A stretch of DNA of 64,000 nucleotides from Cucumis sativus (lineage: Eukaryota > Streptophyta > Magnoliopsida > Cucurbitales > Cucurbitaceae), in the NCBI RefSeq assembly GCF_000004075.3, contig NC_026657.2, positions 31,528,408 through 31,592,407 on the forward strand, in the 5' to 3' direction. The position numbers were made by a program, and so were the translations under genes. Positions 5,482-63,980 of this stretch are shown here, piece by piece. The notes under the pieces were generated by a model. That model had not been told where the DNA came from, did no database searches, and saw only the letters and a program-made list of their open reading frames with translations. Position 1 is the first letter of the stretch. Every line of letters begins with the position of its first letter.

Positions 5482-10103
<4,622 letters not shown>

Positions 10104-10106
10104 CAA

Positions 10107-10640
10107 TTTTCACAGACCTCTAAGTCCTTGACATAATCTCCCTCCCCTGAATCCAAACATACGAATTGATCCCCAAAAATCCCATCAAGAACCAAACCAC
10201 TCAATTCTAACCTCCTCAATTAGATCAAATCACAACCAATACCTTCAACTCGATTTATTTCCCAAACAACAAGAAACCGAAAACCACAAACAAATAGCCT
10301 CCAACATGAATGCAATCATTCAACACAGAAAACGCCGTGCTCTGAAAAGAAAAGAAAGATGAAAACATAGAGAGGAGGAGAAATTTGAGGAAAAGAAAAT
10401 GGAAGAAAACAAAGGAAAATGAAACCAAGTGGAGAAGGCGAGAATGAAGAAATTCTGTGAAATTGATCATCTTCTTCAATCATTCAGCGATTGAAGCTCT
10501 ACAATCGATCAACGTCCGAATAATCCTCAGAATAATCCTTCATCGACGGATCCCATTTGTGCATGCATGGCTTTGGTTCAAGCTCCTCTTCCCCATGCGT
10601 TACTTCCTTTTTTTCTTTTTCCCTTTTTTTATTACGAATG
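10107..10640 (-). other. Probable 5' leader and promoter of the CDPK gene
   Basis: On the - strand this stretch is rich in pyrimidine tracts typical of plant leaders. It lies directly upstream of the kinase ATG. I cannot place the transcription start or decide whether the leader is spliced. Confidence 0.45.
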
Positions 10641-17574: not shown

Positions 17575-19556
17575 CTAGAAAGAGAACTTGAAAGCACCAG
17601 CGTTTGAATCAGCCACGGAGTCCCAAAACGAAAGTTTCTTCTGTTCAGCCGCCTTCTCTTCGGCTTTCCGAGCCAACTGATCAATGGTTCCAGGGAGAGA
17701 AGCATCAATGGCGTTTTTAAACTTATCATACAGATTCACGCGATCTTTTGTACCAGAAACCAACATGCTTGCATTTGGTCTCTTAAGGAAATCCAAGACA
17801 TTTAACAGATTTCTTCTGCAGATCAGAAACTAAGAATCAATACAGACTAATCATCGACATGAAATATCTACCAAGGAAATTATAGAGCTAAACTCTCTGA
17901 GTTAATATACGAAGGAACAATCATCCACGGTGCAAGTGTCTTTAGCAGTTCATATTCCCTCATTTTTCAATCCATTTAAAACATAATTTAGCCATAGAGG
18001 TAGGCAAGAGACGAGGTTAGCTAATAACATCAAAGGAAGTTATATATATTATATGAACGCTACTCTTCAAAAGAAAAGGCAGATTTGGTAATAACTCTAC
18101 GACTTTCATATTCTTACGTGAAACTAATTATAGGACTGCATTGCCTAATCATTCATATTAGTTCTGAAATTCTTCGTTTCCTTGCATTTATAACCCGCTT
18201 CTCAACAAAAAGCAAAAGAATTACTTAATGGGTATGTAACATTCAAGAACTTATTTACCTGCTAACATAATTCTGTGTGATGGCAATGGACTCCTCCAAG
18301 TTGATCACCAAATGCCACCATCCATTTGGCACAAAGATCACTTCCCCAGCCTTGCAAATGCACTCTATAGGCTTCTTTTCCCAAGTCTTGGTTGCAGCAT
18401 AAAAGTTCATGAACCATTCAATAATAGAAACGGGGCAAGCGACTTCAGCACCGTCCGGGCTGGGGTGTACTCCAGGCGGAACTACATCAGGTGGGAACAA
18501 TACCCACTTCTTGGAGCCTTGAATCACTGCATTCCAAGCTGAAGTTGAATTAGGATCTATATGGAATGACGAGCCAGATCCCGATGGTCCAATTATAATC
18601 CATCGATAATCAGGCCTTTCCATCCCTAAAACACCAAATAAATCTTCTCTGAAGTACTCTGGAACATCATATTCTGAGCCCAATCTCGGAACTTTGTCAG
18701 CAAATTTGGGGTCAAATAGGTATAACGGTCTCTCCTCTCTTGCCTGATCAGAGTACAAAAAGAACTCCTCAAGCTTCATATCCACAGGCCCAACTGAAAA
18801 TCTAACATCATCACACAATTGAATCAAATAATCTCTATTCCACTTTTTCCTTGCCACCCAATTATCCAAACATCCCTCCAACAACACAGGCTTATTGGGT
18901 TCTTCAAAGTTCAAAACAAATTCTTCAACTGAAATCCTTTTTCTTCTAATAATGTTATCTCTTTCAAGCCACTCAGGTTTCATTTCAAGGTTAGCACAAA
19001 GCCAACTCTGAAAAAGATAATCAGAATAGAAATCCCTCACTCTCAAACCCGAAATGTCGACAACAGAATCATCAAATGAAGAATAAAAAGCAGCTAAATA
19101 AGTAGATTTCCAAGTCTTATTATAAAGAAAACCACCTTTAACATTATCCAACACAAGGTTCCTCCAAAGAGGTTCATGATTAGCAAAAACATAAAACGAT
19201 TTGCTCACACAAGCCAAAACCCCTAAATGGGTAGCATCGAGGAACCCTAAAACATCAAGAACCAGCTCATCTGTCAAAATTTGAATATTACCCAGACCTA
19301 TATTTCTTGTGTTAATGGTGCCTGAAGCGAGATAGAGATTTCCTAACGGCTGCACACCATGATTGGAAGATGGTGCAGAGGATTTGAGGCCGAAACCAAA
19401 TTCATTGTCGTCTTCATTGCATTTCTGAATTTGGGACTTTTCGGAAACGGAATTTCGATCTCGAGAAACAGGTTTGCTCCTGATTTTCCTGTCTGAAACT
19501 TTCTTTCTTTTCTTTCTCTTCATGGCGCGAGAAAAGAGAGTTTTGGAGCTTAACAT
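17575..19556 (-). CDS. JMJ22: F-box and JmjC domain protein, JMJ22-like histone arginine demethylase
   Basis: Two exons: 19556-18259 and 17815-17575, with GT-AG junctions, giving 512 aa. Arabidopsis JMJ22 is reported to remove histone arginine methylation during light-induced seed germination. The N-terminus is Lys/Arg-rich, like a nuclear signal. The F-box lies at about 93-136 (ILTDELVLDVLGFLD...PLWRNL). The JmjC domain follows, with the iron ligands His332 and Asp334 (FHIDP), His415 (GWWHLVIN), and the 2-oxoglutarate contact Lys349, aligned by eye to JMJD6. All are present, so it should be catalytically competent. The frame is open upstream of 19556 but only with a TTG start at 19682, so I rejected that. 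A second ATG at 19523 would give 501 aa and has a better -3 base (G). Its - strand neighbour is MYOB7-like, as in Arabidopsis. Confidence 0.93.
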
Positions 19557-19759
19557 TTGTGAAGCTTTTCGTGGGTCTGATGAAAATGGAAGAAATTGAA
19601 ACTCCTTTGATGGCGCTGCCGCAGGGTTTGGGGTTTGGGGTTTTGGCGACAAAGCTACGAATTTGCCGATACTTCCCCTCAAGTGGCTGTTTTCGTTTTC
19701 TCTCTCTACGATTTGATATTTTTATTTCTACTTTTTTCAAAACAAAAACAATTTACATC

Positions 19760-48938: not shown

Positions 48939-51721
48939 TTAGTACCCAACCACGTATCTAGTCTGAGAATCCCAGAAATCTTTGGTTTGTTTCAACACTC
49001 TAGCACGTTCTTCCACTAGCCTCTCCTTCCAGTAATCTTTACACCTGTGTATACCACTTGTTCAATCAATAAACATGTAGGTGGGAGGGAGTTGATTATA
49101 GAAGACTTAAAATGACTTTGATAGTAAAAATTGTAGTTAAAAGTGTAAATTTAAACATTAGATTTGAATTTGTCTTTTTTTTGTTTAAATGATGAGATTT
49201 GTGCTCTGAAACCTTTTTTTTCTTTTTTTCCTTTTGTTCAAGACAGGAGTATCTATCATGATAGAACTGTTGATAAAATATCTTTTAAAAACTTAAAGGA
49301 AAAAAAAAAGGAAAGAATACACAAACAAACAAAAATAAGAGAGCAGCATACAAAAAGGACTCCACAATCTAAGAAAATAGAACATAACTATCATTATAAA
49401 AGAAGCTAAGCATACAAATATGTCTAAATATTGAATCTAATATATGAACAAATCCACCATCTAAAAATTCTATTGTTTCTCTCTCCGAAGCCTCCCAACA
49501 ATAGCACGCACCCAAACTCAATAATGTTAACTGGAATGTTAATGCTATGCATCATGATTAAACCAACTCAAATTGATTTAGTAGCATGTTGAACTCAGCA
49601 TTTTGAGATTAGCAGAGTGTTATTTAAAGCATAATGATGCAATTGATAGTTTTCAACTTCTAGAGACAAAGTGAATGGGAAGGAAAGAGGCTCTAAATTT
49701 ACAAACCTTCTTTTCAATAGCATATCCAGTTCAACCATGTGCAATGCTTTAGGATACTCTCCGGTCTGCACTAGAAACAAATAATAGTCAAAAGAGTTTG
49801 AGACTCTGTTGGTCATATAGGACTACGATTATAACTTAATTCTTCTTATCAGTTGAACTTGTAATTTTTCATAAAGCAGAACATCTCACCACATATATGT
49901 TATGGTGATCGGAAATAGAATGTTCAAAAGGGATGAACCTTGTTAAATCATATCTAAGTATTAGATAGAAGAAAAGAAACGGAACTTAGACTTCAACCAT
50001 AAAAGATCAACACAAAATCAAGAAGAAAAGGTATCCTTCCAAAGATTGAACATTAGAAACATTGCATTGCAAGAAAACAAACTCCTAAATACCGAAGAAA
50101 CACGGAAGTCTGTAGCAGATAAACTATAAGCGTCAGATGAAATTCCTAGCATTCCTGCTAAGAGGTAACAGCAACATTTTAAAGCAATAAGAAAATTTGT
50201 TATTCCCTGGTTTTAATTTTTTTCCATGACCTTCATTATGGGTATGCAAGTGTTTCTTCATTTGGGGGGGAAAACAGCTGAAGGATGTTGACAAATGGCC
50301 ATGAAAATAGCACGATGTCAAACAAATTCTGTAAAGATATGAAGACAAAAAACATAGTTTAATGGAAAAAATGGAAGGAAGATGACTAGTAAGCAAGCAA
50401 ACTATCAAGAACATAGTTTGATGATGAAAAGATACACGAAGACAAAAAAGAAAATTGGAGATATTTCCATTTGTCTTAAGTATTTCAAAAATATTACTGC
50501 ATCAATTTGGTCCATGAGATTGAATTTTCAATTGTATTTGTCTTTTTTCCAAACTTTTCATATCTTAACAGCTCATGGAGAATAATCTGATTGCTTCAAA
50601 TACTAAACACAGACCTCTCTACAAACTGGGCATTTAGATTCCGGGCTGGCAGCCTTTGGTCCATCGCAAATCATCACTGAAGCTGCTAAACAAACACATG
50701 ATTTGCAAAAGAGATGTCCACAACCCAAAGCATATGGATCAAATAATGTTTCCTGCAACATCATCACAATTCAAAGTATTATCAAATAAATTCCTAATAC
50801 TTTCATCCCTACAGCCAAGAGAAGAAAATTTACCAAGCATATAGGGCAAGTAAGATCATATTCCAACTTTATAGAATCTGGAAGCATCAACGTCATTGTC
50901 GGTGCCGCATCCACATTAAAGGAAAAGTGAGTGGAGAATCCTGAAGGATAATCTCCATCCTTGGATCCTTTAAAATTCAAACAAAAAGCACCCAATTCTA
51001 TAAGCCAAGGGGATTGCAAAAGCTCCATATGTTCAGCTCGCATTCTCAACTTAAAGTTTTTTCCATTTACAGAGCTATGTACCTATAATTGATTATTTAA
51101 AACACACAAAACAAAAGTTATGTTCTTAAATTGAAACAAACATACATACAAACTCCAATGTCAAATCCACAAATTTTCAAATTAAAATATGAATTTAGAC
51201 CGAATCTCACCTTATCATACTTCTTGAGAATCTTTCTGATAGCAATAGCATTCATTGTAACATATTCAATCAGCATTCGACCTTCTTGTATCAAGGTGGT
51301 TTGATCGGTTTTGAAGCAATGAACCAATCGTGACATGTATCTCTCAATTCCTCCTGCAACATGAAGATGAAGAAGATGTCTAACTCTTGTGTTGAAACAT
51401 CCAGCAATATCCGAGGCTTCCCTCATCAACTCCGAAAAGAACAACTGATCGCATACTACAAAGTGAAACATTCTCAATCAATTCCAGTGTCCAACGACTG
51501 AATCGAAAACGAGCTAAAAAATCAAAAGAAAACAATGTATTAACAATCTTACCAGGGCAAGATTTACATTCACATTCATTACTGCAGGAATCATTGAGCC
51601 TGCAAGTACGACAGCTCTTAAGAACCTTCTTCAACCGCTTATACTCAACATGCGAACATTTATCCAAGAACCATTCTCGATCACCGTGCAAATACTCCAT
51701 GAACGTCTCGCCGAATTTCAT
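48939..51721 (-). CDS. SPX-RING E3 ubiquitin ligase, NLA/BAH1-like
   Basis: Probable E3 ligase. NLA (BAH1) ubiquitinates phosphate and nitrate transporters at the plasma membrane and affects salicylic acid levels; SPX domains sense inositol pyrophosphates. Six exons, 51721-51553, 51455-51211, 51082-50834, 50752-50615, 49765-49707, 49044-48939, give 321 aa, near the family length of about 335. The SPX domain starts MKFGETFMEYLHGDREWFL and includes FKRLKK-like basic positions (YKRLKKVLKSC) that contact phosphate ligands in the family. An unusual Cys cluster lies at 37-59. The RING finger is complete C3HC4: Cys217, 220, 232, His234, Cys237, 240, 262, 265. The C-terminus (YWKERLVEERARVLKQ) fits the family. 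The N-terminal FMEYLHG resembles the BAH1-like paralogue (recalled as At2g38920) more than NLA itself, so I leave the symbol blank. Confidence 0.92.
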
Positions 51722-52130
51722 CTTTAATCTTGTAAATACTTTTTACAGAAAACCCTAAAACACATCAAATTCAAAGGGAAAATTCAAATACTCATGCGAA
51801 AAATTGGGCAAAAACACCACCAACATTACAGAATTCAATAAAACCCACCTCAAACTGGAAGGAGATGAAGCAGATTAAAACTATAGAAAGGAGAAAAAAC
51901 GACCTATTCGAACGCTGTATTATGCGGTTTCTCGAATTTTTCTCGTCGAGGAAATGGCAGGTGGAAAAGTTAAGAAGAGGAATCCGGGAAAATCGGAAGA
52001 GGAAAAGAAAATCTTAGAGAGAAAAAAGAAGGAAGGATGAAATTGTGGCATAGAAAACGAGAATTAGTTTTGAAAAAGAAAACGATATCGCGGAGTTTCT
52101 GGGAACTTCAGTGGTTGGCGTGATTGCAAA
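51722..52130 (-). other. Probable 5' leader and promoter of the SPX-RING gene
   Basis: Directly upstream of the ATG at 51721. The composition falls to the AT-rich background beyond about 52200. No TATA box or start site can be fixed with confidence. Confidence 0.4.
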
Positions 52131-59081: not shown

Positions 59082-62000
59082 ATGGTTCAGTCGCCACTGA
59101 AGCAGCTTGCCACCATCTGCACATCGAGACCTGCTCCATTACCGACCTTCTTCTTTGTCATCATCATCTGTGTTTTGGGTTTTTACACATTTCATTTTTC
59201 GACCTCGTCGTCGTTCTCTGTAACTTCAAGTCCGAGAAATTCTGTTCGGTTTCAGCAGCTTCTTCTTTCATCGGGGTCGAACTACACCGTCGCGTCGTAT
59301 CTCCGGTCCCTTACTCTTCATCCTCATCTAGCCGGAACGGAACCCTCATCGGAAACAGTGCGGTACGTCGAGTCTCACTTCCGCGACCTTGGGCTTGAAA
59401 CGCACTCTATTCAGTATGATGCTCTGCTCTCTTACCCAAAATCCACTTCTCTGTCGGTTCTATTATCGAATGGAACCGTTGTTAATATTCCGCTATCGGA
59501 AAATGTTGAGGGGGTAGTTCAACCCTACCATGCTTATTCGCCGTCTGGTACGGCGTACGGCCCGGCGGTGTTCGTGAACTATGGGCGGGACGAGGACTAC
59601 CGGGAGTTGGCAAAGATGGGCGTCACCGTCGTGGGATGCATTGCAGTTGCGAGGAAAGGGGAATTTCCGAGGGGGGTGGTGGTGGCGAAGGCGGAGGCTA
59701 ATGGGGCAAAAGGGGTTCTATTGTATGTTGAGGGCGACGGATTTAGACAGGGCTTTGAGAGAGGGACGGTGATGAGGGGAATTGGGGACCCGCTCAGTCC
59801 TGGTTGGGCAGCCGTTGATGGAGCTGAGAGGTTGAATTTGAACGACAGTGAAGTTTTAAAAAGGTTTCCCAAAATTCCGTCTATGCCTTTGTCGGCTGAG
59901 TCTGCTGAGATCATTCTGAGTTCACTCGACACTGCTTCCGTACCGCCGGAGTGGCGGACAAGAAAGCCAATCTTGGGTCGGCGGCGGTGGGGCCTGGTGG
60001 TCCGATTTTTATCAACTTCACTTACCAGGTTTTGAATTTCAACACTTAAGTCAAAGATGAAAAGTACTGTGTGTTGGGAAATTTTAGCCGTTGTTTGTTT
60101 TTTTGTTGTTGAGGCCCAGATATTGAATGCTCTTTCTTTTGACTTTGCTATTCTGTTGTGCCACTTTCCCCCCCTTGAGTTGTAGATTGCTAGTTGTATT
60201 TGTTCTATTAGGCGTAGACCTTTACTGATGAGAAGTGACTTTTGCTTTACGGCTGTAAATTATTTGTCGAACTATAACTGTCCCTCGTTGACTAATCTTG
60301 ACCATAATTGTGGGGATTTGTCTGGTAAAAATTCTAGTACTACACAGGAGTATCTACTTCTTCCATGTCATTTGATGATATATTACTTTGTTTCATGGGT
60401 CCCACATAATACTTCATGTGTTTTCTTAATGGTATTCATTGAATGAAGGTGTGAGAAATTTAGAATTTTTCCTATGTTTTTTGCTTCAGCTGGTTGCCAT
60501 AGGATAGATGTTCTTGTGGACTTTCGTCCTGTCTTACTGAAATTCACCCTCAGGACATAAATTAAATCGAAGGGTAGACATTTTGGGCCTTAAACCTCCC
60601 GGTCATTGACAATCTATATCCCAATTGAGTTATGTTTGGCTTAGCGAAAGTTAGATGTTTTGGGAAAAGATGGCAGCAGTCATGTCTTTTGTAGGAATGA
60701 AAAATACTTATAGCTAATTAGAAGTACTTTTTTTTCCAAACTTTTCGTGGTGGTTCATTACACAGTCAAGGTTGATGAAGTTTTTGATAGAATTTTTTAA
60801 AAAATGTTATAGAAAATGTGATTCATCCAAGAGCACTACTCTTATTTGTCATTCCAACCTCAACTCTTATTCATAAAGGTTAGCAATCCCTATCCCTTGT
60901 GAATGAATACAGAACCAAGTTTCCCTATGCTGGTGAGTGTTTCTATGTATATATTTTAGTTGACATTGCACAAGTTGCAAGTAGGTAAAGTTTTGTTAAG
61001 ACTGTTGCAAGGTCAATATACGAAGAATATGGGTCAACATTGTCGAATCAGTGGGGTTTTGGGTGTATATAACTTATCAGAAATCAAAATTAAAAATATT
61101 AGTGTCAATTGGAAACAGAAAGTAAAGCTCCATGCTGCTGAGAGTTCTCTCTCTAATTATCTTTCTAATTGTTCCAATTTTGAAATCAATTCTTGTTGGA
61201 GAGCTTTCTTGTAATCATGTTTCAAATTGTGGTTGTTACTGGACTACTGAAGGGGCCTGCAACTTTTCAATTATCAAGGAAAAACTAATGCTTCTTGTCC
61301 CCATAAAAATGGACCATGGATAGGAAACCTCGTGGATTTGTATTAAATTTTTAGAGTATTCATTATCATGGCTGTTATTTTTAATAAATACCTATTTTAG
61401 TATAATTAGCAAAGCCTCTGATTTTATGCAATGAAAATGAAGAATGCCCAGCATTTTCATACGAGTCTCTGTCCTTGTACTTCTGATTCTTTTCCCAGTT
61501 TTTTCCTTTTCCTAACTCTCCGGCCATGTCATTTTTAGGGGGAGAGGAAAGTGGCAACAATTCGTAATGTCATAGCTGTCATAAAAGGGTTGGAAGAGCC
61601 TGATCGCTTTGTGCTTATGGGAAATCATAGAGATGCATGGAGTTTTGGTGCTGTTGATCCAAACAGTGGAACTGCAGCCTTACTTGACATTGCACGTCGT
61701 TTTTCTCTTTTGAGAAGGTTGGGGTGGAACCCTCGAAGGACAATTCTTCTTTGTAGTTGGGATGCTGAAGAATTTGGTATGGTATGTACTATCAAATCTC
61801 CATGTGCATTTTGAATGATTGCTGGTGACTTAACACGCCTTTCCCTCTTTTTCATCATCTCTATGATGGGAGCAGAAGAGGAGAAGGTGCATGAGTAGTC
61901 AATTTTCTCCTTTATTTATTCACATGTTTCTCTTTACAATCATTTATTTTTATATATTTGAAGACTCTTTCCTCAAGGTATTTTACAGGTTTAATTTAGT

Positions 62001-63980
62001 GTTTAAAGACACTTTTTTCTATATTGTAGAAATGCTTGAATACTAGATAGTATTACATCAAGAAGTACTTTCCTAGCTTTGTTTAGTCAAGCTTCTTTAA
62101 ATTAGATTTTGCTGCTTGCAGATTGGATCTACTGAGTGGGTTGAGCAAAATATTGTGAATCTTGGAACCAAAGCTGTGGCCTACCTTAATGTAGATTGTG
62201 CAGTTCAGGGACCAGGGTTTTTTGCTGGTGCAACTCCTCAGCTAGACGATCTCCTCCATGATGTTACTGCTCAGGTATACACATAAAGGAATTATCGTTT
62301 GGTAGATAAATTGTTTCCATACCAACCAATCAACTATTTTTGGGTTTACACTCTGGAAAATCAAAGCAATTGTCATTAATAGTATAAACTAACTTAGATC
62401 TGTTGAATTTTCAGATTTTTTTTTAAAAGAAAAGTTCATTGTTTTATTTATTATTTCGACTTGCTTCACCCATGTGTTGTATGGCACACATTTTTTTAAA
62501 GACTTGCTGATATCAGGTCCAGGATCCTGATGTGAAAGGTGCAACTGTGCATGACACATGGACAGCCGAAAATGGAATCGGGAATGTAAGACCATACTAT
62601 CTTAATCTGTTATTAATATCAATCATTGTAGTACCGCTGGCTTTTCCATACTGCTTGCATCCCTTCTGTTGTATGACTATGAAGTGATTAACTAGTCTAC
62701 ATGCTGTTAATCACCTGTGATATCTGGGGCTCGATGAGGGAGCTAAGGATATGCCAACCCAGTTGAGATTTTTGGGTGCGCCTATTGATCCCTCGAAATC
62801 AATTTCCTTGAAAAAGAAAAAAATTCTATAGGCTGACTCTATTTCTGCTGCTCAAGGCTTTCCTCAAATAATAGTAGATGACAAACTAAACATTTGAAAT
62901 ATAAAATATAATCTCAAGCTTTTGGATGAAGTTTAAAAGATGAGTATTACTAAATGCTGTCATGAAGTTAAGAATCCTGTGTTTTAAAGATAATAAGTTG
63001 TGAATTCTCTGTTTATTGTTTGATCGCGATTGTTCGTGGCTAGTTTGCAGATTGAAAGACTAGGTGCGGTGAATTCTGATTTTGCTGCATTTGTGCAACA
63101 TGCAGGAGTTCCATCTGTTGATGTGTATTATGGTAGAGGTACATTACACTTGCCTTATATGCTAGGAGACTAGGAGTTATATCGTTATTTGAAACAGAAG
63201 TGAGATTCACAAATTACAGTTGCCAAAAATGATTTGTCCCATGCTTATTGTTGCATTTATTATTGTCTTGGTCACGTAGCTTTTCCTAGGTCTTTGTCCC
63301 ATGCTTATTGTTGCTTTTATTTTGTCCTGGTCACATAGCTTTTCCTAGGTCTTTGTAGTTTGGTATGGTGTGCATATTTTATTGGAGGACAACCCTAAGG
63401 AGAGTGTTTTACGACAGGTTAGTGAACAGTTTTGGTCTTAGGGGTTTGATATAGTGTACATGTTCTATTGGACGTTTTGTTTCAGCTTAAGAGGAGTGTT
63501 CTTAGTAGGGTTGCTTTTTCTGCCGGTATATTTGACTTGAGAAAAATAGGAAAAACTTTAAAGCCAGAGACATAATGGGGGAGGTCTGGTCTTTGGTTAG
63601 ATTCAATACCATTTTCTTGGTGTCGGTTGCTAGATATTTTTGTAATTATCAGTCTTCCTATTTTGAGTAGTTAGAGTCTTTGTTTTCTATGGGTAAAGCC
63701 TTTTTGTCTTGTCTCCTATTGACTTGGTATTTTTTTTTATTGTGTGGTCGAAGTGGTCGTATATCCTTTTATTCTCGCTATGGAAGTATGTTTTTTCATG
63801 CTTCTTGTTCAAGTAACGAAACATGGCTTTTCATTGTTAAAGAAAGCTCATTGTAATGTTGTCTCTGTTTTGTGACAAGCTTCTTTTCTTACTCAGATTT
63901 TCCTGTCTACCATACTGCCTTCGACACCTATGATTGGATGGCAAATTATGGAGACCCATTGTTTCATCGACATGTGACTG
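59082..63980 (+). CDS. AMP1: AMP1-like glutamate carboxypeptidase (M28), 3' partial, apparent frameshift in exon 1
   Basis: Membrane-anchored M28 peptidase homologue of the ALTERED MERISTEM PROGRAM 1 family, which limits shoot meristem size and is tied to cytokinin levels and ER-bound translation. Visible exons: 59082-60028, 61539-61781, 62122-62274, 62517-62585, 63051-63138, 63897-63980; the gene continues past the window. A signal-anchor helix spans about residues 22-42 ([16 protein letters not shown]). The PA domain includes [19 protein letters not shown]. The catalytic part has [17 protein letters not shown] and SWDAEEFGM, carrying the expected metal ligands and catalytic Glu. After Arg292 (CGG, 59955-59957) the frame slips: the family-like continuation VGPGGP...NFTYQ at the end of exon 1 is in another frame. 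As written, splicing gives a stop at 61573-61575 after 327 aa. This may be a sequence error or a true null allele. AMP1 rather than a close paralogue is probable, not certain. Confidence 0.88.
59955..59960 (+). other. Site of apparent one-base deletion in the AMP1-like gene
   Basis: The sequence reads GAG TGG CGG ACA AGA. If one G is supposed after CGG, the following codons become Asp-Lys-Lys-Ala-Asn-Leu and lead in frame to Val-Gly-Pro-Gly-Gly-Pro, the form expected in this family, and the exon then ends in phase 0, matching exon 2. No GT/AG pair nearby could explain the shift by splicing. Confidence 0.8.
63233..63354 (+). repeat. 60-bp tandem duplication in AMP1-like intron 5
   Basis: TTTGTCCCATGCTTATTGTT begins at 63233 and again at 63293. 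Both units run through GGTCAC(G/A)TAGCTTTTCCTAGG with a few substitutions and one deletion, so the duplication is not very recent. Confidence 0.85.

Follow-up and report, generated by a model that had tools for sequence, protein, structure and literature searches.

The window, by which we mean the whole 64,000-nucleotide stretch of DNA that was analysed, corresponds to positions 31,528,408-31,592,407 of contig C3 in the assembly of Cucumis sativus 9930 v3, a highly inbred line whose fertility we take for granted. In this assembly, exons resembling CENH3 are found at the v3 coordinates given in PMC11220175. Towards the window's end lies an AMP1-like gene of the glutamate carboxypeptidase II (GCPII) family (M28B), which we rebuilt on the window together with 10 kb of adjoining sequence that overlaps this end. 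The rebuilt model consists of ten exons running from an ATG at 59082 to a TGA at 65621-65623, with the last four exons past the window's end (Table 1). All nine introns are of the GT-AG type (9/9), and the coding sequence from 59082 to 65623, stop codon included, comes to 2105 nt, which is 702 codons minus one base. Intron 5 holds a tandem duplication of ~59 bases at 63233-63356, in 2.1 copies with 93% matches.

Table 1. Features of the AMP1-like gene (coordinates counted from the first base of the window and continued into the neighbouring sequence).
Feature	Coordinates	Strand	Basis or content
Exon 1	59082..60028	+	Start codon, hydrophobic N-terminus and PA domain; family-like in frame 0 up to 59957; from ~59987 AMP1-like in another frame, mainly by a provisional Arabidopsis stretch
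Interval most likely holding the net one-base slip	59958..59989	+	Break-point scans
Intron 1	60029..61538	+	CAG/GTTTTG ... TTTTTAG
Exon 2	61539..61781	+	Start of M28 peptidase domain; Pfam PF04389, 40.8 bits
Stop met on splicing the written sequence (codon 328)	61573..61575	+	Splicing of the rebuilt model
Exon 3	62122..62274	+	Gene model, GCPII alignment
Exon 4	62517..62585	+	Gene model, GCPII alignment
Exon 5	63051..63138	+	Gene model, GCPII alignment
Exon 6	63897..63980	+	Gene model
Exon 7	64181-64269 (extended coordinates, beyond window)	+	Gene model
Exon 8	64504-64617 (extended coordinates, beyond window)	+	Gene model
Exon 9	64722-64856 (extended coordinates, beyond window)	+	Gene model
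Exon 10	65441-65623 (extended coordinates, beyond window)	+	Gene model

Besides this gene, several coding stretches are present on the minus strand of the window. These include an intact open frame of 488 codons with F-box and JmjC/Cupin_8 domains (18255-19721), a 477-codon open frame that carries a zein-binding domain (PF04576; 21507-22940), and the exons of a protein kinase gene (8127-10109, with PF00069 in 9204-10109), whose translation looks CDPK-like. A further set of minus-strand exons, at 51118-51742, is like an SPX-domain protein, scoring 24.4 bits and thus below the Pfam cut-off of 27.8.

The reading frame of the AMP1-like gene breaks late in exon 1, and the likeness to the family is found on both sides of the break. 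The part before it contains a PA domain (PF02225, 25.8 bits against a Pfam cut-off of 23.9) and matches human glutamate carboxypeptidase II at an E value of 5e-29 over residues 30-290 of 292. The exons after it encode an M28 peptidase domain (PF04389, 80.3 bits against a cut-off of 21.3) and, in the later exons, a TFR-like dimerisation domain (TFR_dimer, PF04253, 101.7 bits against 27.1), and together they match the same human protein at 7e-73 over residues 23-403 of 408. The stretches NHRD, DPNSG, AEEFG, NVD and YHT are all conserved downstream of the break, and in the GCPII alignment HRD, DP.SG, AEEFG, N.D and YH line up at the zinc-ligand and catalytic residues. By eye, a hydrophobic stretch is visible in the translation at around residues 20-40, a candidate for the N-terminal transmembrane segment of this family. 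The PA, Peptidase_M28 and TFR_dimer domains, together with the GCPII matches, support the assignment of the gene as an AMP1-like M28B protein of a known kind, a putative orthologue of AMP1 or of LAMP1. One uninterrupted reading frame across all of the domains is not found in the sequence as written, which meets a stop at 61573, and this probably counts against the written sequence more than against the gene.

Among known relatives, Arabidopsis AMP1 (At3g54720) is like the cucumber gene on both sides of the break, as a provisional stretch of it aligns closely, and its length of 705 residues compares with ~701 for the cucumber protein. Unlike Arabidopsis AMP1, the cucumber sequence in 9930 v3 slips by one base where exon 1 ends. 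Both cucumber pieces also match human glutamate carboxypeptidase II and III; these represent an animal enzyme with a solved structure, of which the cucumber gene is a plant homologue, interrupted as written. In the literature, Arabidopsis AMP1 is described as an M28B zinc metalloprotease-like protein (PMC11376390), and rice PLA3 and maize VP8 are named as AMP1 orthologues (PMC3102729).

The frame that starts at the ATG (frame 0) is open and family-like through the codon of Arg292 (59955-59957), as the sequence-only reading had stated. The donor CAG/GT at 60028/60029 is in phase with exon 2 only in a frame other than 0, and it is this second frame that exons 2-10 continue without a stop. The gene shows a single net slip of one base late in exon 1, while its other exons, splice sites and phases are intact, and it holds no second lesion. 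By frame alone, the loss of one base and the gain of two are equivalent. As written, the spliced message runs for 327 codons to the stop, with eight exon junctions downstream of it, and the truncated product is without the zinc-protease domain. If the plant did make this message, it should be degraded by nonsense-mediated decay. The earlier reading had proposed a net shift of one base late in exon 1, a stop at 61573-61575 with several junctions downstream, and a predicted loss of function of the written sequence of an AMP1-like gene; the phase of exons 2-10 agrees with the first, the eight junctions with the second, and the domains, GCPII matches and spliced frame with the third. Its claim that a single restored base makes the remainder of the gene family-like and phase-consistent holds in part, as exons 2-10 are indeed open and consistent in phase, while the likeness of the exon 1 tail comes mainly from the provisional Arabidopsis stretch.

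That tail, read in the second frame, comprises 23 residues (59960-60028). It has no Pfam match, and it lies outside the GCPII alignment save for its last residue, where the alignment starts, so that the first 22 residues past the slip are not covered by the alignment to the human proteins. On a bacterial profile made from 30 of the 33 relatives fetched (three were left out as short), the second-frame tail adds 2.4 bits (376.4 against 374.0), and reading on in frame 0 through the tail into exon 2 as written adds 0.6 bits. The tail appears to resemble AMP1 (VGPG, IN.T.QGE), mainly by comparison with the provisional Arabidopsis stretch. A missing exon was considered as the cause of the break and rejected, as the CAG/GTTTTG donor and the acceptor of exon 2 are in phase in the second frame and the alignment to the Arabidopsis stretch continues across the break, where the linker gaps span no more than 5-6 residues.

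In a break-point scan with the bacterial profile, scores of 552-558 bits were obtained over ~59954-60011, and a scan with the provisional Arabidopsis AMP1 stretch gave a plateau of 570-575 over 59957-59987, highest at 59972. Because the linker between the PA and protease domains is poorly conserved, the slip can be bracketed only to ~59958-59989. An exact position was rejected, as both scans give a plateau, and of the earlier proposal that one G be restored near 59957 the slip itself is confirmed, while its place and base are not supported as unique. The slip site has 55-65% GC per 60 nt in a window of 32% GC; exon 1 is GC-rich throughout, its 60-nt blocks being mostly 42-67% GC, and the site is unremarkable within it. 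No long homopolymer lies there: the bracket contains AAA and GGG runs, and a GGGG begins at its border. A search for an independent copy of the slip site, with a 25-base pattern in viral contigs, returned 0 matches.

We searched the cucumber genome for further genes of this family, exon by exon and with the best candidates only. With exon 1 as query, the AMP1-like locus was the only one found at the DNA and the protein level (1 and 3 candidates scored, respectively), and both of the two TFR_dimer matches in the whole assembly fall in the AMP1-like gene. The M28 family search gave nine matches, one of which is the AMP1-like gene. Near the other eight, no GCPII-like gene was found in five 10-kb stretches (best tblastn E 0.13), where the best match to the bacterial profile covered the M28 fold at 11.7 bits (E 0.005); in shorter M28 stretches, the best tblastn match outside the AMP1-like gene had an E value of 0.049. 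No second GCPII-like gene was thus detected by the exon-1, TFR_dimer and M28 searches, and a second copy or paralogue of the AMP1-like gene finds no support among the candidates scored.

We consider it very probable that the slip is a residual single-base assembly error in 9930 v3, with the gene unbroken in the plant, because of the number of indels left in the assembly, the undamaged state of the rest of the gene, and the lack of a backup paralogue in our searches. According to the assembly's description, PacBio reads served to build 9930 v3, Pilon then fixed 156,931 small indels, and 30,546 homozygous small indels remained in the final sequence relative to new Illumina and earlier Sanger reads (PMC6582320). 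The slip would in this respect be like the residual indels of other PacBio long-read assemblies. From the published count, a genome-mean rate of 1.35e-4 per base would, if uniform, give 0.28 indels expected in the 2105-nt coding sequence. The probability that one or more fall there would then be 25%, and it drops to 8% at three tenths of the mean rate and to 2.8% at a tenth. These lower rates may be nearer the truth, because the 97.5% of complete BUSCO genes given for a 9930 re-annotation in PMC12395194 suggests that the coding sequence of 9930 v3 is probably cleaner than the genome average. The GC content of the site, high for the window, also speaks for an error. Against an assembly error are the absence of a long homopolymer, a GC content that is not special within exon 1, the frequency of natural coding indels among cucumber accessions, the low profile scores of the exon 1 tail, and the fact that the published rate is a genome mean. 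If the slip is such an error, the reference would carry one leftover wrong base call where exon 1 closes in GC-rich sequence, and the slip would be absent from the plant itself, which would most likely make a full-length protein of ~701 residues with PA, M28 and TFR-dimer domains. This protein may work like Arabidopsis AMP1, restraining meristem size and leaf initiation.

The alternative offered by the sequence-only reading beside an assembly error was a natural null allele, and of the two it is the error that is favoured here and the null that is disfavoured. In such a case 9930 would carry a real and recent AMP1 null, stopping after 327 codons and yielding a product without the protease and dimer domains, which would be tolerated through an undetected paralogue or a buffering background; we regard this as unlikely. 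The written sequence itself does encode the truncation, and coding indels segregate in cucumber: PMC8813957 compares 11 further accessions with 9930 and reports 1,388,197 small indels, ~1.5% of which alter a start codon, stop codon, splice site, amino acid or the frame. In Arabidopsis, amp1 single mutants reach adulthood (PMC7531801) as plants with more leaves (PMC7531801; PMC11376390), and amp1 effects vary among accessions (PMC3102729), all of which would make a surviving null easier to accept. On the other hand, the gene shows no further decay, the backup that the plant would rely on was not found by the exon-1, TFR_dimer and M28 searches of the genome, and the residual indel count of 9930 v3 makes an error likely. 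Arabidopsis amp1 lamp1 double mutants, moreover, are reported as fully sterile (PMC7531801; PMC11376390), and because plants without AMP1 and its paralogue are sterile there, a real null is unlikely in an inbred line. Among the matches listed in the open-licence literature, judged by title and the start of the abstract, we found no paper on cucumber AMP1 and no report of a cucumber AMP1 null; papers on frame errors in 9930 were likewise not found in that literature. A more far-reaching form of the null, in which 9930 carries it in its only GCPII-like gene yet develops and sets seed normally, so that AMP1 function would be dispensable or replaced in cucumber, seems to us more improbable still.

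Instead of being broken, the gene might also yield an in-frame protein from the sequence as written, if 59997 or 60000 is the true end of exon 1 or serves as a cryptic donor, with the loss of ~ten residues, or if two nearby frame changes lie in a tolerant linker. Both of these donors cut frame 0 in phase 0 and join exon 2 in phase. On the bacterial profile their products of 690-691 aa reach 545.0 and 547.4 bits, which is 6-13 below the read-through plateau (553-558); the poorly conserved linker and the little profile support for the second-frame tail would also fit. However, judged by eye against the plant donor consensus, CTG/GTGGTC and GTG/GTCCGA fit worse than CAG/GTTTTG, although the latter is itself not strong downstream of the GT. 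The products also score 525-526 on the provisional Arabidopsis stretch against 575 for the best read-through, which is 49-50 lower, and the second frame change that the linker version calls for is not seen. We accord this possibility the least credence of those considered here. Since little besides the provisional Arabidopsis stretch supports the tail that follows the slip, we hold the assembly error to be very probable and no more, and leave the in-frame protein this small share.

The slip in the reference is thus most likely an assembly artefact in a gene of a known kind. In the event of an error, AMP1 may be truncated or distorted in the gene models and protein sets built on 9930 v3, and pan-genome lists of loss-of-function genes as well as candidate-gene work on shoot architecture could be misled by it. 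Were the slip real, one could ask in the cucumber reference line, as in a natural experiment, whether a plant can do without AMP1.

Elsewhere in the cucumber genome, we observed a plantacyanin exon at C6:17346918-17347112 that is nearest to cucumber basic protein, with 61 of its 65 residues identical to 2CBP and the other four different, though the genome is itself that of cucumber.
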